A DNA stretch of 41,458 bases, taken from positions 1-41,458 of IMG/VR virus record IMGVR_UViG_3300027898_000004; one strand, given 5' to 3'. The position numbers and the translations under genes are program-made. Shown in pieces: positions 406 to 41,458 of this stretch. This DNA comes from a virus. Under the pieces are notes generated by a model. That model was not told the DNA's origin and made no database searches. It worked only from the letters and a program-made list of their open reading frames with translations. Each line of letters starts with the position of its first letter. The first letter of the stretch is position 1.

Positions 406-612
406 GGAGAGCAGGCAATCGCCGCAGCGTTCGGATTGGAATCGAAGGCGAAAGCTGATGAAGCCGGAATTATCGTGATTGCCTGGTGGGATGAAAGTGT
501 TGACCCGCCACGGAAGCGGCTGACAACTGGCTATGTCGGTGAGGGAAACATCGAACCGAATGTTTGGTATTCGTGTGATTCGGAAGGTAAATTGGTTGAG
601 GTGAAAGAGTGA
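1..612 (+). CDS. DUF7666-like repeat protein, C-terminal part (continues from 41003)
   Basis: This is the 3' part of a gene whose 5' part lies at 41003-41458. It is open from base 1 in frame 1 and ends at TGA 610-612. Positions 1-405 are 15 tandem 27-bp units, each coding nine residues of the form G-x-x-S-A-S-S-A-T, where x-x is NY, YK or DN. The last ~69 residues form a unique tail (AFGLESKAKADEAG... NVWYSCDSEGKLVEV). Tails of this kind, 'xPdvWY.ld.eGkpvev', are what I recall from phage and plasmid DUF7666 proteins. The molecular function of the family is not known to me. The repeats recall YadA-head-like or other beta-solenoid repeats, which is inference. The stop overlaps the GTG start of the DNA polymerase, suggesting coupling. 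Confidence 0.85.
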   Translation, partial: GNYSASSATGYKSASSATGNYSASSATGNYSASSATGNYSASSATGYKSASSATGNYSASSATGNYSASSATGDNSASSATGNYSASSATGDNSASSATGYKSASSATGDNSASSATGNYSASSATGYKSASSATGEQAIAAAFGLESKAKADEAGIIVIAWWDESVDPPRKRLTTGYVGEGNIEPNVWYSCDSEGKLVEVKE

Positions 613-2573
613 AAGCACTCCACATCGACTTTGAAACGTTCAGTGCCTGCGACTTACGGGCTGCAGGGCTGCACAACTATGCCACGCATCCTACAACTGG
701 CGTGCATTGTCTTGGCTATGCATTTGATGATGAACCCGTCCGGCTGATTCCAGAAGATGACTTTGATCTTGAGAAGCTGTTTGTCCGCGAACACGTTGCC
801 GCCGGTGGGATTGTGTACGCGCACAACGCAGCGTTTGAACTGGCTATCTGGAATAACATCATGGTCCCGCGGTACGGCTGGCCTGAACTGAAACCGAGCC
901 AGTGCCGTTGCACAATGGCGATGGCCTATGCAATGGCGCTCCCTGGTGCACTGGAAAAGGTTGCGCCTGCCCTTGGCCTTGGCGTCAATAAAGACGCGCT
1001 TGGTAAGCGGATTATGTTGAAACTTCGCCAGCCGGACAAAGACGGTAATTTTTACAGCCCTGAAAAATCCCCGGATGACTTCCAAAAATTATATGAATAC
1101 TGCAAGCAGGACGTTGTTGTTGAACGCGCAGTGCATGGTCGCCTGATGGAGTTGTCCCCTTATGAACAGAAAGTGTGGGAGTTAGATTATGAAATCAATC
1201 AGCGCGGTATTCAGGTCGATCTTGCGGCCATCGATGCAGCCATCAAACTGGTCGAATCTGAGAAGATCAGGCTTAACAAAGAAATGCTCATTGTCACGGG
1301 TGGCGTTGTTGGTTCGTGCACGGAAGTCCAATTACTTGTTAAGTGGATACGCTCGCAAGGCGTTCAGATCAAGGGCGTTGCGAAAGCAGACGTTATTGAC
1401 TCGCTTGACGGAGATTTACCGGAATGCGTCAGATCCGCGCTTGAGCTGCGCAGAGAGGCGGCTAAATCAAGCACTGCTAAACTCGTCGCCATGCGAGAAC
1501 GAGCTTCGGCAGATGGCCGTGTACGGGGTATCCATCAATACCATGGAGCAAGTACTGGAAGATGGGCAGGTCGTGGGGTTCAAACGCAAAATCTGCCCCG
1601 ACCTAGAAAAGGTATTAAACCTAAACACATCAACGACATCATCACGCATTTAAAAGACCGCGATTACGTTGATGCGATGTATGGGCCAGTTTTAGACGCC
1701 ATCAGCGATTGTGTCAGGGGGATGCTCATTGCGAAGCCAGGGCACGATCTGATTGAGGTGGACTTCAGTGCGATTGAAGCGCGGGTGTTGGCTTGGCTGG
1801 CCGGAGAAGAACGGGTATTGGAGATATTCAGAACACATGGAAAGATTTACGAACATGCGGCATCCGGCATTTATCATGTTGCCTTAGAGGACGTTGATGA
1901 GTTCATGCGCCAGATCGGTAAAGTCGCTGTGCTGGCTCTCGGATACGGTGGCGGCAAGGGCGCGTTTCAATCGATGGCAAAAAACTACAACGTCAAAGTC
2001 AGCGATGACGATGCTGAAGACATTAAAGTGAAATGGCGCGAAGCACATCCGGCCATCGTTCAATACTGGTACGACTTGGAAAACGCTGCGAAGCGTGCCA
2101 TGACAATGGGTGGTATTCATACCGCCGGTGCAGAAGGCCGTAAGGTGGCATTTACGGTCAACGGGTCTTTTCTGTGGTGCAGACTGCCATCCGGCCGTGT
2201 GATCTGCTATTGCTATCCGAAGTTTGTAGACAAAGAAACGCCATGGGGCCAGATGAAAGAATCGATCGCATTTATGGCGGTTGACGGTACATCCGGCAAA
2301 TGGGTTGAAACCACGACATATGGCGGGAGTCTTGCTGAAAACGTAACACAAGCCGTTGCCAGGGATTTACTGGTCAACGCGATGTTTACTCTAAAACAAG
2401 CCCTGTTCGATATCGTCATGCATATTCACGACAGCAACGTTGTGGAAATCGAATCATCGTGCGATAGTAGCATCTTGAAAAAAATTGAAGCACTGATGTG
2501 CGTGCTGCCTAAGTGGGCAGATGGGCTGCCAATTGCGGCAGAGGGTTGGAGAGCAAAGAGGTTTCAAAAATGA
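609..2573 (+). CDS. Family A DNA polymerase with 3'-5' exonuclease domain
   Basis: This is the replicative phage DNA polymerase, 654 aa. The GTG start at 609 overlaps the upstream TGA. The N-terminal DnaQ-like exonuclease shows motif I HIDFET (D7, E9) and motif III YCKQD. Motif II reads HNAAFELAIW, with E where D is usual, so proofreading efficiency is uncertain. The polymerase half shows STGRW...QNLPRP, motif A with D385 (EVDFSAIEAR), motif B with R434, K438 and the following GYGG, and motif C HDS (D608). The length fits phage-type PolA lacking a 5' nuclease. It follows a DUF2815 and DUF2800 pair and precedes a nuclease and a primase-helicase, a common phage replication order. Confidence 0.95.
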   Translation: MKALHIDFETFSACDLRAAGLHNYATHPTTGVHCLGYAFDDEPVRLIPEDDFDLEKLFVREHVAAGGIVYAHNAAFELAIWNNIMVPRYGWPELKPSQCRCTMAMAYAMALPGALEKVAPALGLGVNKDALGKRIMLKLRQPDKDGNFYSPEKSPDDFQKLYEYCKQDVVVERAVHGRLMELSPYEQKVWELDYEINQRGIQVDLAAIDAAIKLVESEKIRLNKEMLIVTGGVVGSCTEVQLLVKWIRSQGVQIKGVAKADVIDSLDGDLPECVRSALELRREAAKSSTAKLVAMRERASADGRVRGIHQYHGASTGRWAGRGVQTQNLPRPRKGIKPKHINDIITHLKDRDYVDAMYGPVLDAISDCVRGMLIAKPGHDLIEVDFSAIEARVLAWLAGEERVLEIFRTHGKIYEHAASGIYHVALEDVDEFMRQIGKVAVLALGYGGGKGAFQSMAKNYNVKVSDDDAEDIKVKWREAHPAIVQYWYDLENAAKRAMTMGGIHTAGAEGRKVAFTVNGSFLWCRLPSGRVICYCYPKFVDKETPWGQMKESIAFMAVDGTSGKWVETTTYGGSLAENVTQAVARDLLVNAMFTLKQALFDIVMHIHDSNVVEIESSCDSSILKKIEALMCVLPKWADGLPIAAEGWRAKRFQK

Positions 2574-3293: not shown

Positions 3294-5489
3294 ATGCGTT
3301 TAGAAACTGCGCTTAACCTGGCACGCAATGGGTTTTACATTTTTCCCTGCATCGCCAATCAGAAGGAACCGGCCATAAAAAATTGGCCAGCAAAAGCAAC
3401 GAGAGATGCAGCGCAAATCACGAAATGGTTCAGCAAGCACGACTATAATATTGGTATTTCCACATCGCATTACGAAGACAACATGGCGCTTGTCGTGGTT
3501 GACGTGGATAACAAAAATGGTAAAGACGGCGACACTGAAATTTTTCGGCTTGAGATGGAAGGCAAAGAGTTTCCGCCAACGTTTGAGCAGACAACTCCGA
3601 GTGGTGGGCGTCACCTTGTCTATGGCTGGACAAACGCATTAAAGCAGGGCGTTAACGTGCTTGGCAAGGGCTTGGATATTCGCAGCTCAGGCGGGTATAT
3701 CGTCGGCCCCGGCAGCGTATTGGATGGCGCTGAGTACAAATCTAACGTGGACTGGTTTCATCCGCGGTCGCCAACAGTTGCACCGGGCTGGCTTGTCGAT
3801 CGGCTTGGTGCACCGAAAGCGCCATCTGCAGCCAAGGGCGAAGTTCTGCCAGGCATTGACGCTGACCGCGCAGAGCGCCGCGCCATCAAGTATCTTGAAA
3901 CGGCACCGGTTGCCACTGAAGGAGATGGCGGCGACTTGGCAACGTTCAAAGTGGCGTGCAAGCTGAAAGATTTTGGCTGTGACGAATTGCAAGCCGCAGT
4001 TTTGATGATGACGCACTGGAACGATCGGTGCAGCCCACCGTGGGAACCAGATGAAATGGAAACCAAGGTTCACCACGCTTACCGATACGGCCAAGAACCG
4101 CGAGGTGCAGCAGCGCCAGAAGCGCAGTTCCCCCCAATCCCCGAAACAGAACCGTCAAAAAGCGGAACGAAATCCGCCAAACCTGAAACGCTGCACCCCT
4201 TTGCTGAGATGAATAAAGAGTTTGCCTTCGTCAAAAAGGGTGCGTTTGTACTGCAGGAAACCACTGATGACACAGATCAGTTCGTCACGGAACATCTGAA
4301 CATGGCGGAATTCCACGGATGGTTCGCAAACAAGATGTTTGCAGCAGCCAACAGCAAACCGAAGCCCCTCTCTGAATGTTGGCTCGCATGGTCGCAGCGC
4401 CGTGAATACGAAGCTGTGGTATTCAGGCCACAGGAAAATTGTGGGCCGCGCTGGTACAACTTATGGCGCGGGTTCTCCGTCGCGCCAGCAGCCACGGCAG
4501 ATCATCCAGCAGTTGCGGCGTTCTGTGAACATGCGCTGGTTAATGTTTGCGGCGGCGATGAGATGCTGTGTAATTGGTTGCTCGGATACTTTGCGCACAT
4601 GATCCAGAAGCCATGGGAAAAACCATTGGTTGCCCTGGTATTCAAGGGTAAAAAAGGAACCGGTAAAAACGCATTGGTTGAGCGCGTCGGTCAACTATTT
4701 GCAAGCCATTTTCTTGTTGCGGATGATGAGCGTTATCTGCTGTCAAATTTCAATAGCCATCTTGAATCGAACCTGTTCTTTGTGCTGGATGAAGCCAGTT
4801 GGGCGGGCGACAAACGGGCTGAAGGCAAGCTCAAGGGGCTGATCACAGGCCAACACCACAACATCGAACGCAAGGGCAAGGAAGCCTACAAGGTTAAGAA
4901 CCTGACCCGCGTTGCCATCATCGGTAACGAAGATTGGCTGGTCCCTGCGTCGGCAGATGAACGGCGCTTTGCTGTGTTCAACGTGGGCGACGGCCGCCGG
5001 CAGGATAGAAAGTTCTTTGAGGATATGCGCACCGGCATGGAACAGGGTGGTTATGCGCATCTGCTTAAATTCCTGCAGGACTTCGATCTGGGGGCCGTTG
5101 ACGTGAACGACGCACCAAACACAGTCGGCCTGATGGAACAAAAGATCGCGTCACTCGAGCCATTGGAACAGTGGTGGTATGGCTGCCTTGAAGCAGGCCA
5201 AGTGCTGTGCGGTGACTTCGGCAGCGATTGGCCAGAGCGTCTATCTATTAACCGGCTGCACGATGCGCTGGAACGGTACTACAAAAAACGCAATATCAAA
5301 TCACGCGCCCCGGATCGCAATGCATTGAGCCGGAAGCTGAAGGCGATGGCGCAGCATTACATAAAGAAAAAGAACATCAAGCGCGAATTAGGGGATGGCA
5401 CATACGCCTATTTCCATGCAGGCATTGATCAACTGCGCAGCGATTTTGATGCATACATGGGCGACACTTTGGAATGGGATGAACTATGA
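3294..5489 (+). CDS. Prim-Pol primase / D5-like helicase fusion
   Basis: A 731-aa bifunctional replication protein. Residues 1-180 look like an archaeo-eukaryotic primase (Prim-Pol) domain: LARNGFYIFPC, K-P-xx-W near residue 31, catalytic DVD (D70, D72), TPSGGRHLVY (H107) and GGYIVGPGS. The C-terminal half is a DUF5906/D5-like superfamily 3 helicase: Walker A GKKGTGKNA near residue 453, Walker B FFVLDEASWAG near 497, then sensor-like AIIGNEDWLVPASADERRF. It should prime and unwind the phage origin. ATG 3294 lies 3 nt after the previous stop. The end overlaps the next ATG. Confidence 0.93.
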   Translation: MRLETALNLARNGFYIFPCIANQKEPAIKNWPAKATRDAAQITKWFSKHDYNIGISTSHYEDNMALVVVDVDNKNGKDGDTEIFRLEMEGKEFPPTFEQTTPSGGRHLVYGWTNALKQGVNVLGKGLDIRSSGGYIVGPGSVLDGAEYKSNVDWFHPRSPTVAPGWLVDRLGAPKAPSAAKGEVLPGIDADRAERRAIKYLETAPVATEGDGGDLATFKVACKLKDFGCDELQAAVLMMTHWNDRCSPPWEPDEMETKVHHAYRYGQEPRGAAAPEAQFPPIPETEPSKSGTKSAKPETLHPFAEMNKEFAFVKKGAFVLQETTDDTDQFVTEHLNMAEFHGWFANKMFAAANSKPKPLSECWLAWSQRREYEAVVFRPQENCGPRWYNLWRGFSVAPAATADHPAVAAFCEHALVNVCGGDEMLCNWLLGYFAHMIQKPWEKPLVALVFKGKKGTGKNALVERVGQLFASHFLVADDERYLLSNFNSHLESNLFFVLDEASWAGDKRAEGKLKGLITGQHHNIERKGKEAYKVKNLTRVAIIGNEDWLVPASADERRFAVFNVGDGRRQDRKFFEDMRTGMEQGGYAHLLKFLQDFDLGAVDVNDAPNTVGLMEQKIASLEPLEQWWYGCLEAGQVLCGDFGSDWPERLSINRLHDALERYYKKRNIKSRAPDRNALSRKLKAMAQHYIKKKNIKRELGDGTYAYFHAGIDQLRSDFDAYMGDTLEWDEL

Positions 5490-5682: not shown

Positions 5683-6165
5683 ATGCAATCGTATGTCGGA
5701 ACCAAAACCCTCAAAGCAAAGCCGATGACTCGCGGCGAATACAACACATATCGCGGATGGAAGATGCCTGCCAATGAAGATCCGGCGGAAGCAGGCTACC
5801 TGGTCGAATACACAGATGGCGGAAAGCCAAATCACCAAGGCCACGCCGGGTATATTAGCTGGTCGCCAAAAGACGTATTTGAATATACGTATCGGCCAAC
5901 AACCGGCGCAACGTTCGGGTTGGCCGTTGGCGCGATGAAAGAGGGTTCATTCGCCACACGGGCGGGCTGGAATGGAAAGTCACAGTTCGTTTATTACGTT
6001 GAATCGTGGGAATATCCGCTTGGCGTCATCCATCGGGAATGCTTCGAGTTGAAAACGGTTGACGGTTCCGTTGTGCCCTGGGCCCCATCAGTATCAGACG
6101 CGCTGGCAGAAGATTGGCAGCTTATCGTTCCGGTCGAATCAGCCGAGCCCTACCAGTTTCAATAG
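5683..6165 (+). CDS. Two-domain protein with Tad2-like (DUF2829) C-terminal domain
   Basis: A 160-aa protein preceded by AAGGAGAAGTGAA and ATG 5683. Residues 1-72 form a domain I recall from many phage proteins (KPMTRGEYNxYRGW, GYLVEYxDGGKPNHxGHxGYISWSPKxVFExxYRP). Residues 77-150 match DUF2829: FGLAVGAMKEG, TRAGWNGK (92-99), FELKTVDGSVVPWAPSVSDALAEDWQ. DUF2829 includes Tad2, which sequesters the cyclic ADP-ribose signal of the Thoeris anti-phage system. The anti-Thoeris role is inferred from family membership. It is the last gene of the replication operon, a usual place for accessory anti-defence genes. Confidence 0.8.
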   Translation: MQSYVGTKTLKAKPMTRGEYNTYRGWKMPANEDPAEAGYLVEYTDGGKPNHQGHAGYISWSPKDVFEYTYRPTTGATFGLAVGAMKEGSFATRAGWNGKSQFVYYVESWEYPLGVIHRECFELKTVDGSVVPWAPSVSDALAEDWQLIVPVESAEPYQFQ

Positions 6166-26193: not shown

Positions 26194-27072
26194 TTATGCT
26201 CCTTCAGGGTATGCAAACTGGTGCAGACGCGCCATTTCCTTCACGGCATCCGCTTCTTTGTTCAGGTATCGGGTGACAAAAGTCTTGTCGTTCATTTTCG
26301 CTTTAATCTGGTCTTTGGCTTGACCCGGTGTCAATGCGGCTTCTCCGCCGCCTTTACCCGAGACAAAATCAGACTCCATCGATTTGCTGCCAATTTTCTG
26401 CAGCAGTTCCATTGTGGCTTTGTGCCCAAGGGTTGCAGAAAGCGCATCGACGGTTGGCGCATCCAACCCCAAACCGCGCATCGCAGCCTGGGCGTGTGCC
26501 AAGTTTTGTGTGAACGCGGCACCCCATTCGTTTTTCAATGCAAGTTGGTCAGCTTCAAAAGCCTGTTGCTTTTGCGCTGTCAGCCCTGTTTGCATTGTCG
26601 CCATTTGCTCGTTGTTCCACTTCGCCAGCGCTTCACCTTGCGTTTGTGTCAGGCCGAGTTCATGAAACTTCGCTGCAGCTGCGGTAGCAAAATCTTTATT
26701 GCCACCTTCGGGGATGTCCAGCTTGTAGCCAGTTGCATCGACGGGCCTGCCGAGCCGGTTGTAAAACGCATCGCGCTCGGCCTGTGTTGATTCTGCTTTC
26801 GGCAAGATAACGGCGTTACCTGCCTTATCCGCACCGAGCAATTTTTCTAAATTCTGGTACGACTGAACAGCATCAGCGCCGGTTTTCCAACCTTTATTTT
26901 GCACATAGCCAGTCGTCAATTCATCGGCTTGACCAAGCCATGATGCATCGGCCGCACTCGCAGCGGGCGCACTGGCTGGCGGGCTCGCCACTTGTGATCC
27001 GGCGGCAACGGTTTGAACAGATTCGGTTCCGCTTAACGCGGCGCTTGTACTTGCAGGGGCGGCATTACTCAT
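26194..27072 (-). CDS. Scaffolding protein
   Basis: A 292-aa protein with a low-complexity Ala/Ser/Pro-rich N-terminus (about 1-45), a helical, charged, Gln/Ala-rich body (LGLTQTQGEALAKWNNEQMATMQTGLTAQKQQAFEADQLALKNEWG) and a basic C-terminal region. These are general traits of scaffolds that guide procapsid assembly and then leave. The sequence GDKAGNAVILPKAES...AFYNRLGRPVDATGYKLDIPEG resembles known phage scaffold proteins. It lies directly upstream of the capsid group. Confidence 0.82.
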   Translation of the reverse strand: MSNAAPASTSAALSGTESVQTVAAGSQVASPPASAPAASAADASWLGQADELTTGYVQNKGWKTGADAVQSYQNLEKLLGADKAGNAVILPKAESTQAERDAFYNRLGRPVDATGYKLDIPEGGNKDFATAAAAKFHELGLTQTQGEALAKWNNEQMATMQTGLTAQKQQAFEADQLALKNEWGAAFTQNLAHAQAAMRGLGLDAPTVDALSATLGHKATMELLQKIGSKSMESDFVSGKGGGEAALTPGQAKDQIKAKMNDKTFVTRYLNKEADAVKEMARLHQFAYPEGA

Positions 27073-31669: not shown

Positions 31670-31774
31670 ATGAACTCAATTTATACATCAAGCCGCTCAG
31701 TAATTACCGACGATGCAAAGCGCCTGGAATTAATCAAACAGCGGATTGCATCGCTTTTGGCTCAGTCGAAATAA
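31670..31774 (+). CDS. Very small leader protein of ardC operon
   Basis: A 34-aa ORF (MNSIYTSSRSVITDDAKRL...) beginning after CAAGGGAAAATCAAA. The same CACTC(A/G)AGGGAAAATCA-type leader precedes ardC (31823-31838), so the ribosome site appears duplicated. The product is charged and helical. It is not recognised and may be a real small protein or a leader peptide. Confidence 0.5.
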   Translation: MNSIYTSSRSVITDDAKRLELIKQRIASLLAQSK

Positions 31775-31838
31775 TCACGTCTATTGCATTGCTTTAATCA
31801 CATCACATCAATTTAATCTAATCACTCGAGGGAAAATC

Positions 31839-32684
31839 ATGGCTGATTTATATCAGGAAGTAACAAACAAAATCATTGAACAGATGGAAAACTGCAAAGG
31901 CAACTGGGTTATGCCGTGGAAAACATCCGGATCGATGCCACACAATGCCATCACTAAAAAACCATATCGCGGCATCAATCTGTTTTTGCTTTTCGCACCG
32001 GGCGAAGGCAACGGATGGCTGACATTCAAACAAGTTCAGGAAGTGGGCGCAAATATCCGCAAAGGTGAGCACGGCCAGAAAATTGTTTTCTTTTCTCAAT
32101 TTGCCATCACTGACAAAGACACCGGAAAAGAAAAAGCTATCCCCCTGCTGAAGCAATACACAGTTTTTCACACTTCGCAAATCGACAATCTGCCGGAAAA
32201 ATACCTTGATCAGCCATCAAAACCATTGACTGAATTTCAACGCATTGAACATGCGGATGCTTTAATCAATCAGGCCCGTGTTTTTTATGGTTCAGATAAA
32301 GCATTTTACAGACCAGCAACAGATTCTATTCATCTGCCCAGCGTGAATCAGTTCAACACCATTGACGATTTTTATTCAACCGCTTTGCATGAGTTAACCC
32401 ATTGGACCGGATCGGAAAAACGATGCAACCGCGAATTTGGAAAACGTTTTGGTGATTCAGCCTATGCCAGGGAAGAACTGGTGGCAGAGATGGGAAGCGC
32501 TTTTTTGATGGCATCAATTGGTTTCAATGGCAAAAATCAACATGCTGAATATTTGGCTAGTTGGATCAGCGTATTAAAAGCGGACAAGAAAGCCATTTTT
32601 GTGGCAGCCAGCGCAGCACAAAAAGCAACGGATTTTATTTTGACACCGGCAACTGTCGAATCTGAAGAACTGATCGCAGCGTGA
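31839..32684 (+). CDS. ArdC-like antirestriction protein
   Basis: A 281-aa protein with two domains. The N-terminal ssDNA-binding domain (DUF1738) shows GNWVMPWKTSG, PHNAITKKPYRGINLFLL, WLTFKQVQEVGANIRKGEHGQKIVFF. The C-terminal zincin-like domain has H184-E-L-T-H188-W-T-G and a downstream glutamate in AREELVAEMGSAFL. ArdC-type proteins protect incoming DNA from restriction. ATG 31839 follows GAGGGAAAATC. The gene is first or second in a short repressor-controlled operon, suggesting expression soon after entry. Confidence 0.9.
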   Translation: MADLYQEVTNKIIEQMENCKGNWVMPWKTSGSMPHNAITKKPYRGINLFLLFAPGEGNGWLTFKQVQEVGANIRKGEHGQKIVFFSQFAITDKDTGKEKAIPLLKQYTVFHTSQIDNLPEKYLDQPSKPLTEFQRIEHADALINQARVFYGSDKAFYRPATDSIHLPSVNQFNTIDDFYSTALHELTHWTGSEKRCNREFGKRFGDSAYAREELVAEMGSAFLMASIGFNGKNQHAEYLASWISVLKADKKAIFVAASAAQKATDFILTPATVESEELIAA

Positions 32685-33133: not shown

Positions 33134-33319
33134 ATGCAGATCGAAATAGAAGAAACCCTATTCAAAGACCTGATAGACTGGTCACTTGAATTTGCAGCGG
33201 ATTTAGAACAGGACATTTTGACCGATGGATCGGACTATTGGACGGCTGAAGAAAAGGTCGCACTGTTAAACCGCATCGCTAAGTTGAAAGAATTTGCCGA
33301 ACGCTCTGGTACGATCTGA
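33134..33319 (+). CDS. Small acidic hypothetical protein
   Basis: A 61-aa acidic protein (MQIEIEETLFKDLIDWSLEFAADLEQDILTDGSDYWTAEEKVALLNRIAKLKEFAERSGTI). CAGGGGAAATACC precedes the ATG. It is strongly negatively charged and helical. Small acidic phage proteins are often DNA mimics or inhibitors, but nothing specific is recognised. Confidence 0.7.
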   Translation: MQIEIEETLFKDLIDWSLEFAADLEQDILTDGSDYWTAEEKVALLNRIAKLKEFAERSGTI

Positions 33320-33486: not shown

Positions 33487-33867
33487 ATTCTAAACATTCT
33501 ATGTTTCTTTTAATTAATAGAATACGTAACCCTTTGATTTTATTACCCTATTCTATATATTCTATATATTCTATTTATTTAAGTATTAGTAGTTAATATA
33601 TAGGGGTATAGGTTGCCGTACAGCCCTTGGCGGGTCAGTAATATCCCACACCACAAAATCTCCCGGCGGATTTGGAAAAAAAACGTAGAATTTGTAGAAT
33701 ATTAGAATATCACTTATAAATCAGTGACTTACAGCACAAAAAACATTCTAAAATATTCTAACATTCTAAGAATATGCGGTTTCGTCATTCCATAAAACGC
33801 AAAAAAGCCAAAAATCTCTCAACTTTTGGCTCTAATTTGACGCTTAATTTTATTCTAAAACATTCTA
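33487..33867. repeat. Cluster of 14 ATTCTA/TAGAAT hexamers
   Basis: ATTCTA starts at 33487, 33496, 33550, 33559, 33568, 33745, 33755, 33763, 33852 and 33862. TAGAAT starts at 33518, 33686, 33695 and 33703. Spacing is often 8-10 bp, and 33550-33576 is a tandem ATTCTATAT x3. Less than one copy is expected by chance in this length even allowing for A/T richness. Confidence 0.85.
33801..33831 (-). terminator. Rho-independent terminator of the repressor gene
   Basis: On the minus strand AGCCAAAA, a 10-nt loop, TTTTGGCT, then TTTTT. An 8-bp perfect stem with T run, 37 bp after the repressor stop. Confidence 0.8.
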
Positions 33868-34464
33868 TTATTGCTTCATCCAGATCACTGGCGATGCGGA
33901 AATTAACCCAACATTCGGGATAACTGGCGTATTCCAACCGCCTAAATTGTACTTTCCGACTTCATATCCACGGCTGACGGGCAAGATGTATGTCGGACCA
34001 TCTGGCTGTAATTTCACAACACATAATCGCCCGAGCGCTTCTAAGCTGATGCCATCGATCGGCCGGTAATAGATCAGCCAGCCATCGAACGGCTGCCCAG
34101 GCGCTTGCGTCCTGATCGCAACAACATCATCAAACCCACCAGGCGGCGATTCGCACACACCGGGGCCAGCAGGACGTTCAAACGATACTTCCTTGTCTGC
34201 GTTCATCCATCCAATGATAGGCGTCGAGGCCCCGCCTGTTGCCGCACTCACGTTGACGCCGGCATGACGTAGCACTTCATCGACAGTAACCCGCAGTAAC
34301 GATGCAATCTCGCCTGCTTCTGTGACACTCATTTTTCTTAAACCACGTAACATTAAACTCACCGCCGCTGGATCGAGATCCATTAATTTAGCCAGGCCAC
34401 GCTTTGATAGGCGTTGTTCTTCTAGCTTTTGGTTAAACCAAGTAACGTTAAAATCCGTAATCAT
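33868..34464 (-). CDS. XRE-family phage repressor (CI-like)
   Basis: A 198-aa protein. Residues about 15-68 form an HTH_3 domain (NQKLEEQRLSKRGLAKLMDLDPAAVSLMLRGLRKMSVTEAGEIASLL). The C-terminal half (about 105-190) resembles the S24/LexA-like fold by pattern (GWLIYYRP..DGIS...GRLCVVKLQPDGPTYILPVSRGYEVGKYNL), but no G-D-S-M serine nucleophile is visible, so it may serve only for dimerisation. AGAGGAGAGCGAC precedes ATG 34464. It is divergent from the Cro-like gene, as expected for a lysogeny repressor. Confidence 0.88.
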   Translation of the reverse strand: MITDFNVTWFNQKLEEQRLSKRGLAKLMDLDPAAVSLMLRGLRKMSVTEAGEIASLLRVTVDEVLRHAGVNVSAATGGASTPIIGWMNADKEVSFERPAGPGVCESPPGGFDDVVAIRTQAPGQPFDGWLIYYRPIDGISLEALGRLCVVKLQPDGPTYILPVSRGYEVGKYNLGGWNTPVIPNVGLISASPVIWMKQ

Positions 34465-34486: not shown

Positions 34487-34503
34487 GTTTACAACTTGTA
34501 AAC
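34487..34503. promoter_or_regulatory. 17-bp palindrome in repressor leader
   Basis: GTTTACAACTTGTAAAC is a perfect odd-centred palindrome just downstream of the repressor -10 on the minus strand. Its sequence differs from the 19-bp operators, so it may bind another regulator or form an mRNA hairpin around the repressor transcript start. Confidence 0.55.
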
Positions 34504-34505
34504 AT

Positions 34506-34534
34506 ATTGTAACGATTACCGTAACATCATACAA
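34506..34534 (-). promoter_or_regulatory. Repressor promoter (PRM-like)
   Basis: On the minus strand -35 TTGTAT (34529-34534), 17-bp spacer, -10 TACAAT (34506-34511). It is overlapped by operator site 2, so the repressor or Cro would control it. Confidence 0.7.
34508..34526. promoter_or_regulatory. 19-bp operator at the repressor promoter (site 2)
   Basis: TGTAACGATTACCGTAACA matches 15 of 16 fixed positions. It lies between -35 and -10 of the repressor promoter. Confidence 0.8.
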
Positions 34535-34606: not shown

Positions 34607-34635
34607 TTTGCATATTGTAGCGATTATCGTATCAT
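34607..34635 (+). promoter_or_regulatory. Cro-operon promoter (PR-like)
   Basis: -35 TTTGCA (34607-34612), 17-bp spacer, -10 TATCAT (34630-34635); TTGCAT with a 16-bp spacer is equivalent. It is overlapped by operator site 3 and drives the genes from 34677 onwards. Confidence 0.7.
34616..34634. promoter_or_regulatory. 19-bp operator at the Cro promoter (site 3)
   Basis: TGTAGCGATTATCGTATCA matches 14 of 16 fixed positions and covers the spacer and -10 of the Cro-side promoter. It lies 90 bp from site 2 across the divergent promoter region. Confidence 0.8.
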
Positions 34636-34676: not shown

Positions 34677-34997
34677 ATGGCAGGGCAACGTGGTATCGGC
34701 AAATATGGACGCCCGACGTACAACCAGGCGCAGAAAGTCATTCGGAAATTTGGTGGCGAAGCGAAGTTGGCTGAAATTGTTGGTTGCTCCCGAATCAGCG
34801 CGTACCGCTGGCAATATCAACGGCCCTATGGCAGCGACGGGCTGATCCCAACAGCGATGGTGGAAAAGATCAACAGCGTTGCCCGCACCCATGGCGTGTT
34901 ACTGACCCCGATGGATTGGCTGCCTGAGCGTATCGACTATGAACCGGTTGCCGCTGACGTATTACACATTCCAGACATTACAAGGACAGCGTCATGA
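34677..34997 (+). CDS. Cro-like HTH regulator
   Basis: A 106-aa protein. Residues 17-75 (QAQKVIRKFGGEAKLAEIVGCSRISAYRWQYQRPYGSDGLIPTAMVEKINSVARTHGV) form a Cro/CI-type HTH, with LTPMDWLPER after it. ATG 34677 follows AGGGGGCAACGAA. First gene of the rightward operon and divergent from the repressor, so it is the likely opponent in the lysis-lysogeny decision. Confidence 0.85.
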   Translation: MAGQRGIGKYGRPTYNQAQKVIRKFGGEAKLAEIVGCSRISAYRWQYQRPYGSDGLIPTAMVEKINSVARTHGVLLTPMDWLPERIDYEPVAADVLHIPDITRTAS

Positions 34998-38709: not shown

Positions 38710-39814
38710 CCACGCGAAACTTGGCCCCTCAAGTGCTGACCGTTGGATGCAATGCCCTGGCAGTGTGGTTTTGTCAGAAGGTATGCCACAGCGTACCAGT
38801 GAATTTGCTGCAGAAGGCACGGCAGCGCATGAACTGGCTGAAAAGCTGTTGAATGGTGGCAAACGTGGCGATGATATGGAAATGGCAGATCACGTTGTTA
38901 CATACGTTGACCATGTGCTTTATCTCGCCGGTACTGATGCGAAAAACACATTGCATATCGAAGTTCGCGTCAAAGTCAGCGACGATATTTGGGGAACAGC
39001 GGATGCGATTGTCTGGAACCCAGAAACCCGAGTGTTGTACGTCCGCGATTTGAAATATGGCGCTGGTGTACCGGTTGAAGTTAAGGGCAATACGCAGTTG
39101 AAGATTTATGCCTTGGCCGCGTTGCTGACGATGGCGTATCCGGCGCGGAAAGTGAATGTCGGTATTGTCCAACCGCGCTGCCCGCATCCAGACGGTTACA
39201 TCCGAGAAGTCGAATTCGATGTGATTGACCTGATCGACTTCAACGCTGAATTAGCGGATGCAGTCAAGCGGGTGAAAGCCGCCCAGGCTGCAACGCATTC
39301 AACTCTGCAGCAGGTTTATTTGAACCCGACTGAAAAGGGTTGCCGGTGGTGTTTGGCCGCCCCGAAATGTCCCGCGATTGCGAACAAAGCGCAGCAAGTG
39401 GCGAAAGTCGTGTTTGCACCTGGCTTGCCATACGACCCTGCTGCGTTGGCGGAAACGCTGGACTTCCTTCCAATCCTTGAAGGCTGGATCACCAACACCC
39501 GCGAGTTCGCCTATTCAGAAGCGGAGAAGGGCCATGCCATTCCGAATTGGAAGCTGGTGCCGAAACAGGCGCGTCGTAAATGGCGCAATGAAGCAGATGC
39601 AGCAAAAGTGCTTTTGGAATTTTTTGATAAAGAAGCGCTGTTTGAAACGGTGCAAAAAATGTTGAGTCCTGCAGAAGCTGAAAAATTGCTTGCGAAGGAT
39701 CAGCGCTCCGTCATCGGCAGTTTAGTGATCAAAGAAAGTTCTGGCCACACGTTGGTGCACGAATCAGATAAACGCGACGCAATCCGCGTCGATGCAAAAG
39801 CGGCTTTCGCATAG
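38702..39814 (+). CDS. DUF2800 RecB-like (Cas4-like) nuclease
   Basis: A 370-aa protein starting MSDHAKLGPSSADRWMQCPGS. PD-(D/E)XK-type motifs: H43 (GTAAHELAE), GTADAI (D101), D116-L-K118 and Q132...Y136 (QLKIYA). Cysteines CRWCLAAPKC near residues 217-226, with the earlier C18, could hold an iron-sulfur cluster as in Cas4/AddB. It is probably a recombination or replication exonuclease paired with the DUF2815 protein. ATG 38702 overlaps the preceding stop by 8 bp. Confidence 0.88.
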   Translation: MSDHAKLGPSSADRWMQCPGSVVLSEGMPQRTSEFAAEGTAAHELAEKLLNGGKRGDDMEMADHVVTYVDHVLYLAGTDAKNTLHIEVRVKVSDDIWGTADAIVWNPETRVLYVRDLKYGAGVPVEVKGNTQLKIYALAALLTMAYPARKVNVGIVQPRCPHPDGYIREVEFDVIDLIDFNAELADAVKRVKAAQAATHSTLQQVYLNPTEKGCRWCLAAPKCPAIANKAQQVAKVVFAPGLPYDPAALAETLDFLPILEGWITNTREFAYSEAEKGHAIPNWKLVPKQARRKWRNEADAAKVLLEFFDKEALFETVQKMLSPAEAEKLLAKDQRSVIGSLVIKESSGHTLVHESDKRDAIRVDAKAAFA

Positions 39815-41002: not shown

Positions 41003-41458
41003 ATGCTTAAAGTCTATAAAGGTTTCAATAAAGATTGGACGTGCCGTGGATACCAATTCAAAGTTGGCGAAACGTTTGTTCATGAAGGCGACGCGAAAGT
41101 GTGCAATGCGGGCTTTCATGCGTGTGAATATCCCCTCGACATTTTTAATTACTATCCACCAACCGGTCAAATCGCTGAGTGCGAATTAGATGGCGTTGAC
41201 CCGAAAACAGACGGCGACACAAAACGCGCCGGCAACAATATTAATATCAAACTGTCGTTGACTATTCCAATGTTGATCGCGGCAGCCATCGAATACACAA
41301 CATCCCGTTGTAATCCTGCTGACGGCCAGCACGCCACAGGTTACAAATCTGCGAGCAGCGCCACAGGTAACTACTCTGCGAGCAGCGCCACAGGTAACTA
41401 CTCTGCGAGCAGCGCCACAGGTAACTACTCTGCGAGCAGCGCCACAGGTTACAAATCT
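41003..41458 (+). CDS. DUF7666-like repeat protein, N-terminal part (continues at base 1)
   Basis: MLKVYKGFNKDWTCRGYQFKVGETFVHEGDAKVCNAGFHACEYPLDIFNYYPPTGQIAECELDG... is the DUF7666-type N-terminal domain (about residues 1-110), then nine-residue repeats begin at 41339. ATG 41003 follows GGAGAATAAA. The frame is open to the end of the window and joins in frame to 1-612. After trimming the 39-bp overlap the full protein is about 342 aa with about 18 repeats. Function unknown. It lies between the ssDNA-binding protein and the polymerase. Confidence 0.85.
   Translation, partial: MLKVYKGFNKDWTCRGYQFKVGETFVHEGDAKVCNAGFHACEYPLDIFNYYPPTGQIAECELDGVDPKTDGDTKRAGNNINIKLSLTIPMLIAAAIEYTTSRCNPADGQHATGYKSASSATGNYSASSATGNYSASSATGNYSASSATGYKS
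41339..41458 (+). repeat. Tandem 27-bp coding repeats, right end
   Basis: Four full units (Y N N N, starting 41339, 41366, 41393, 41420) and 12 bp of a fifth (Y). They are the same units as at 1-405. The last 39 bp equal bases 1-39. Confidence 0.97.

Follow-up and report, generated by a model that had tools for sequence, protein, structure and literature searches.

Judging from sequence comparison and predicted structures, we consider it very probable that a block of 14 ATTCTA hexamers in a temperate phage genome is the replication origin of that phage. The explanation that we favor overall, with good confidence, is an iteron origin loaded by the phage's own primase-helicase, and it is fairly probable that this enzyme itself reads the iterons. 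The window, by which we mean the whole stretch of DNA analyzed, comprises the 41,458 bases of one IMG/VR virus record and represents a temperate podovirus-like phage by gene content; portal and capsid, terminase, integrase, SNF2 helicase, ssDNA-binding protein and RuvC-like resolvase genes are present in addition to the features in Table 1. Both window ends (1-600 and 41200-41458) lie in one tandem repeat (GGTAACTACTCTGCGAGCAGCGCCACA...), which is part of a repeat gene; the assembly therefore probably opened a circular or permuted genome within that gene. Among the roles offered by the initial annotation, the iteron origin is supported by the same position of the array in relatives, by a shared layout beside distant primases and by coupling to the primase C-terminal domain, while the binders that it suggested are not favored and the centromere-like site is unlikely.

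Table 1. Features of the window bearing on the putative origin (a dot marks features without strand).
Feature	Position	Strand	Basis
Family A DNA polymerase	609..2573	+	Pfam
PrimPol-DUF5906 (SF3) primase-helicase, proposed initiator	3294..5489	+	Pfam, PHROG, model, fold comparison
C-terminal winged-helix-like domain (codons 625-731), proposed iteron reader	5166..5486	+	
Iteron doublet ATTCTA-aac-ATTCTA, 9-bp step, left arm	33487..33501	+	exact matches
Single inverted iteron (TAGAAT on +), left arm	33518..33523	-	exact match
Lowest-GC 60 bp (15% GC), overlapping left triplet	33537..33596	.	minimum-GC scan
Iteron triplet ATTCTATAT-ATTCTATAT-ATTCTA, steps 9, 9	33550..33573	+	
Spacer between the two inverted triplets, about 112 bp	33574..33685	.	
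Inverted iteron triplet, steps 9, 8	33686..33708	-	
Second + triplet, steps 10, 8	33745..33768	+	
Terminator-like hairpin of repressor transcript, inside block	33804..33833	-	
Final iteron doublet, 10-bp step, abuts repressor stop codon	33852..33867	+	
CI-like repressor gene (HTH_3), conserved neighbor of the block	33868..34464	-	Pfam and homologues
Operator-like 25-bp repeat 1 (CATATTGTAACGATTACCGTAACAT), differs from iteron	34503..34527		
Operator-like 25-bp repeat 2, 88% identical to repeat 1	34611..34635		
Cro-like gene, first gene of early operon, anchor for finding relatives	34677..34997	+	

The 14 exact copies of ATTCTA or TAGAAT reported in the 381 bp from 33487 to 33867 were all recovered, 10 on the plus strand and 4 on the minus strand. 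Dinucleotide shuffling of the block (2000 shuffles) gave a mean of 0.57 copies and a maximum of 4, and a phased-array score in which any hexamer could compete reached 30 for the block compared with at most 8 in 300 shuffles. The GC content of the block is 30%, and the rest of the window holds only seven further ATTCTA copies. The near-helical spacing described earlier was also borne out, since the start-to-start steps (9, 22, 32, 9, 9, 118, 9, 8, 42, 10, 8, 89 and 10) are mostly 8-10 bp inside groups. Written as arrows, the array reads >> < >>> (118) <<< >>> >>. The three tandem units said to lie within it do exist, but they are not identical: two are ATTCTATAT and the third is ATTCTATTT. As had been noted, the block sits between convergent genes, a small plus-strand gene ending at 33319 and the repressor gene converging from the other side, and the terminator-like hairpin of the repressor transcript lies in the 89-bp gap that separates the last triplet from the final doublet. 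Within the region upstream of cro, the 60 bp of lowest GC content fall inside the array, and this tract is likely the strand-opening element. A search of Rfam returned no credible match. GC skew, which had been recommended for locating the replication start, proved uninformative, because the cumulative minimum near the block (about 34-36.5 kb) is confounded with gene direction and is missing at third codon positions.

The initial annotation had held that its reading would be refuted if relatives lacked repeat clusters at this place; such clusters are present, with changed letters. The closest relatives by Cro-like protein and primase agree in gene order (terS - gap - repressor - cro - ruvC - SNF2 - primase), and an array of the same kind often lies 3′ of the CI-like repressor gene or upstream of the Cro-like gene, usually built from one NTTCYA variant per phage. 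Locus L149 (contig G001, primase 54% identical) has 10 GTTCTA, L158 (G010, primase 59% identical) has 9 TTTCTA, L043 and L088 have 9 ATTCTA each, L385 has 10 GTTCCA and L398 has 7 TTTCCA. More distant members use other letters (CTGTTC in G046, ATTCCTA in G047, CCAAAATC in G015, TGTCCA in L337 and TGGGAC in L360). Because the letters change, ATTCTA alone would miss most relatives as a marker. The geometry is also shared: the distance from the last left copy to the first right copy is 118 bp in the window, L158 and L088 and 116 bp in L149, and the single inverted iteron stands at a near-equal offset in L456 and L149.

Across 41 dereplicated Cro-anchored loci, we counted NTTCYA in the 550 bp around the lowest-GC tract, using the reversed motif as a control. 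The mean was 4.9 copies compared with 1.1 for the control (Wilcoxon p 5e-6), at least five copies of one variant occurred in 11 loci compared with 1 for the control, and phased arrays were stronger upstream of cro than downstream (p 0.002). A strong NTTCYA array was absent from about 29 of the 41 loci, some of which have other repeats (G015, L405) and some of which yielded none, with an automatic array finder that does not work in several GC-rich relatives. In phages with related repressors (BcepIL02, JC1 and others), the genes 3′ of the repressor differ and no ATTCTA array is present, and exact peptide patterns retrieved no repressor relatives from viral contigs. Two relatives carry additional repeats. 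In L158, 13 GTAACA copies, many of them in TGTTACCGTAACA-like palindromes, span 4647-4992, with the iteron array on one side and the repressor gene on the other, and a second protein may bind beside the origin there. In the upstream region of L377, positions 3835-4099 (26% GC) hold 22 AACAAT in one orientation, mostly at 7-bp steps, an arrangement unlike the other arrays.

Scanning bacterial genomes with the primase alignment yielded 45 loci, many of them alphaproteobacterial prophages, with Rhodoblastus, Aureimonas and Paracoccus represented, and 42 were examined. In 20 of the 42, among which three pairs resemble near-duplicates, a hexamer array lies 11-386 bp 3′ of the primase match, as measured from the end of the tblastn match rather than from a mapped stop codon; about 0.7 would be expected, given 32 arrays and a share of 2.3% of the sequence. 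A layout like that of the window recurs there, written in different letters: TCCAAC x12 in Rhodoblastus sp. 17X3, GTCATA x13 in R. acidophilus, TCCTAG x12 in Aureimonas endophytica, TCCGAC x12 in Methylocella silvestris, GGTCCA x9 in a Rhodobacterales genome and GTCCCA x12 in a deltaproteobacterial genome. The steps in the left half of the window array (9, 22, 32, 9, 9) are nearly the same as in Rhodoblastus acidophilus (9, 21, 35, 9, 9), and alignment by eye brings most iterons into register on a TC core (ATTCTA, GTTCCA, TGTCCAA, GGTCCAA). The spacer between the inverted triplets is AT-rich in the window, where L448, L449, L452, L453, L454, L456 and L459 have long, Z-DNA-like alternating purine-pyrimidine tracts of 19-50 bp with one break, a length reached by less than 1% of same-size windows per locus.

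Viral contigs selected by an ATTCTA-triplet pattern were not enriched for PrimPol genes (2 contigs, compared with 2 for the reversed pattern, ATCTTA); since two of the four PrimPol contigs came from the control pattern, the pattern search itself shows no enrichment. Nevertheless, in all four the array lies less than 400 bp from the primase gene, and the null count fits varied iteron letters because both control contigs carry a TAAGAT array beside the primase. The TAAGAT triplets (L215 2792-2813 and L226 7883-7908) stand about 100 bp from PrimPol-type primase genes and represent further iteron spellings. Among named phages, Vibrio phage VP2, which has a related primase, carries 12 TGTCCA within 283 bp, a long way upstream of its replication genes, and BPP-1 has two inverted TTGCCTCGT pairs (9-bp steps) at about 26610-26707; one gene follows the primase there, and the pairs lie in the gap past it. 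The VP2 array (L485 448-735; about 39119-39406 of the record) lies under the annotated hypothetical gene VP2p46, an annotation that may be spurious. The stretches examined of ZP6, RDJL3, M6, CN1, A1432 and Ab19 held no array, and a search of the open-licence literature found no paper describing arrays of this kind.

The initial annotation had named small HTH and zinc-finger proteins as candidate binders; our data favor the primase-helicase instead. Its helicase is an SF3 AAA+ member of the D5/NrS-1 clade (PF19263, E 6.7e-20), and fold comparison of the whole model returned the NrS-1 C-terminal region (Z 24.3), the SaPI5 primase-helicase 7om0 (Z 18.4, spanning residues 297-704 of the window model) and PriRep1 with dsDNA, 7pds (Z 15.2). 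In the proteins scanned, Pfam and PHROG gave no match to any further initiator-like or helicase-loader family, which leaves the primase-helicase as the only candidate for origin melting. In AlphaFold2 models the C-terminal domain has a winged-helix topology (mean pLDDT 86.5); the isolated domain matches PDB entries weakly (best Z 5.8). Among close relatives it is the fastest-evolving part of the protein, with 30-43% identity compared with 74-89% in the SF3 core.

We then compared iterons and primases by partial Mantel tests on 24-26 primase/iteron pairs. With permutations that ignore phylogeny, the iteron distance correlated with the C-terminal distance given the core (0.45, p 0.0005), compared with 0.03-0.06 for the core distance given the C-terminal domain. 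By clade, the partial coupling was 0.46 (p 0.016) among near relatives and a nonsignificant 0.16 (p 0.10) among distant ones. A shift- and strand-free comparison of the iterons gave the same overall coupling as the by-eye TC-core alignment.

Based on these data, we propose a putative mechanism for initiation. ATTCTA would be the iteron, read by the winged-helix-like C-terminal domain of the PrimPol-SF3 primase-helicase; the two inverted triplets would load two helicase hexamers face to face, and the AT-rich tract next to the triplets would melt. The PrimPol domain would then prime synthesis, and the phage family A polymerase would extend the primers. The two hexamers, the melting of the AT tract and PrimPol priming are modeled on SaPI Rep and SCCmec Cch2, and we infer binding, melting, the order of loading and bidirectionality.

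Several known systems bear on this proposal. The alpha protein of satellite phage P4 is a primase-helicase that binds iterons at its origin, and those iterons differ from the ones in the window. Alpha has a Toprim-type primase domain and has been compared with pRN1 (PMC4234260). In SaPI rep/pri, the helicase C-terminal domain recognizes an array of short iterons downstream of its own gene, as summarized in PMC7581432. The window resembles SaPI in combining a C-terminal domain with iterons, and its primase model matches the SaPI5 enzyme; in contrast to SaPI as known from that summary, its array has inverted triplets and 9-bp steps and lies about 11 kb from the gene. For SCCmec Cch2, binding of the C-terminal domain to 5-nt iterons (AAGTG) 3′ of the helicase gene has been shown biochemically (PMC7581432); Cch2 differs in having only three iterons and a helicase without a fused PrimPol, and in belonging to a mobile cassette rather than a phage. 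By analogy, the window origin would work like the SaPI and Cch2 origins but would be set apart by its layout of inverted triplets and by letters that change fast. Members of the window's clade have the array about 11 kb round the circle from the primase-helicase gene, not directly 3′ of the helicase gene as in 20 of the 42 distant relatives, so we claim a likeness in working rather than strict membership by gene order. NrS-1 matches the SF3 region of the window most closely in both fold and sequence; short single-strand priming motifs have been described for its PrimPol-helicase (PMC8718748), and we found no report of an iteron origin for NrS-1 in the literature searched.

The pRN1 protein ORF904 likewise joins PrimPol, SF3 helicase and a C-terminal winged helix. 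Its origin lies 3′ of the gene, and the required element is a 100-bp stem-loop without iterons (PMC4234260). For pRN1 and the BPP-1 group, a protein of this type has been proposed to read a stem-loop, following a search for repeats in BIP-1 that revealed no origin-like iterons (PMC4234260). Applied to the window, this proposal would make the repeats incidental or auxiliary. The block strand does fold better than its shuffles (z -2.9), owing to the inverted repeats. However, the centroid fold lacks a single large stem-loop, the conserved features are the number, phasing and orientation of the repeats rather than a hairpin, and BPP-1 itself has the inverted 9-bp-step doublets near its primase gene. 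We regard a stem-loop origin as very improbable here, and the window's clade and the prophages point to iterons instead.

Other roles would place the array outside replication initiation. A binding site for the repressor or the Cro-like protein, acting in immunity or early-gene control, is slightly easier to entertain but still highly unlikely: the array abuts the repressor gene in the window's clade, and in L158 several GTAACA palindromes sit immediately 3′ of the repressor, but the repressor-cro intergenic region has its own 25-bp repeats of different sequence, which are probable operators. Moreover, the array adjoins the primase gene in distant relatives, and the iteron letters track the primase C-terminal domain. 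The flanking genes in the window's clade, terS (about 2 kb off) on one side and the repressor on the other, would suit a packaging (pac) site read by the small terminase, which we judge about as improbable as the stem-loop, given the arrays directly 3′ of primase genes in distant relatives and the origin-like combination of inverted triplets and an AT-rich tract. Clustered short repeats in a gene-free AT-rich block might also form a partition or centromere-like site, as the initial annotation had suggested. This is the least probable reading of all, because the phage encodes an integrase and the proteins scanned gave no match to a ParA/ParB family; the arrays of distant relatives, again, adjoin primases.

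Returning to the iteron origin, a broader reading would extend it to PrimPol-DUF5906 phages and prophages in general, with one origin grammar whose letters and winged-helix domain change together, and with VP2 and BPP-1 as cultivated members. We are evenly divided on this extension, and we hold the grammar itself (doublet, inverted single, triplet, 70-120 bp spacer, inverted triplet, single, doublet, in 9-bp steps) with the same reserve. If the extension is true, a protein-DNA specificity code could be read from iteron/winged-helix pairs, and the stem-loop model for such phages would be replaced. The array offers a testable origin for widespread temperate phages whose replication start had been guessed at (stem-loop, BPP-1-type; PMC4234260). 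Additionally, the paired fast-changing iterons and winged-helix domains represent a natural set for studying how a self-loading helicase picks its origin, and they may yield a simple rule by which origins and replication-compatibility groups could be located in metagenomic phages and prophages.

Two further genes of the window were noted. A Tad2-like domain protein (PF11195, E 1.6e-19) is encoded at 5683-6165 on the plus strand, its family being named for counter-defense against Thoeris. Near the origin block, an ArdC-type antirestriction protein with a zincin-like metallopeptidase domain is encoded at 31746-32684, also on the plus strand.
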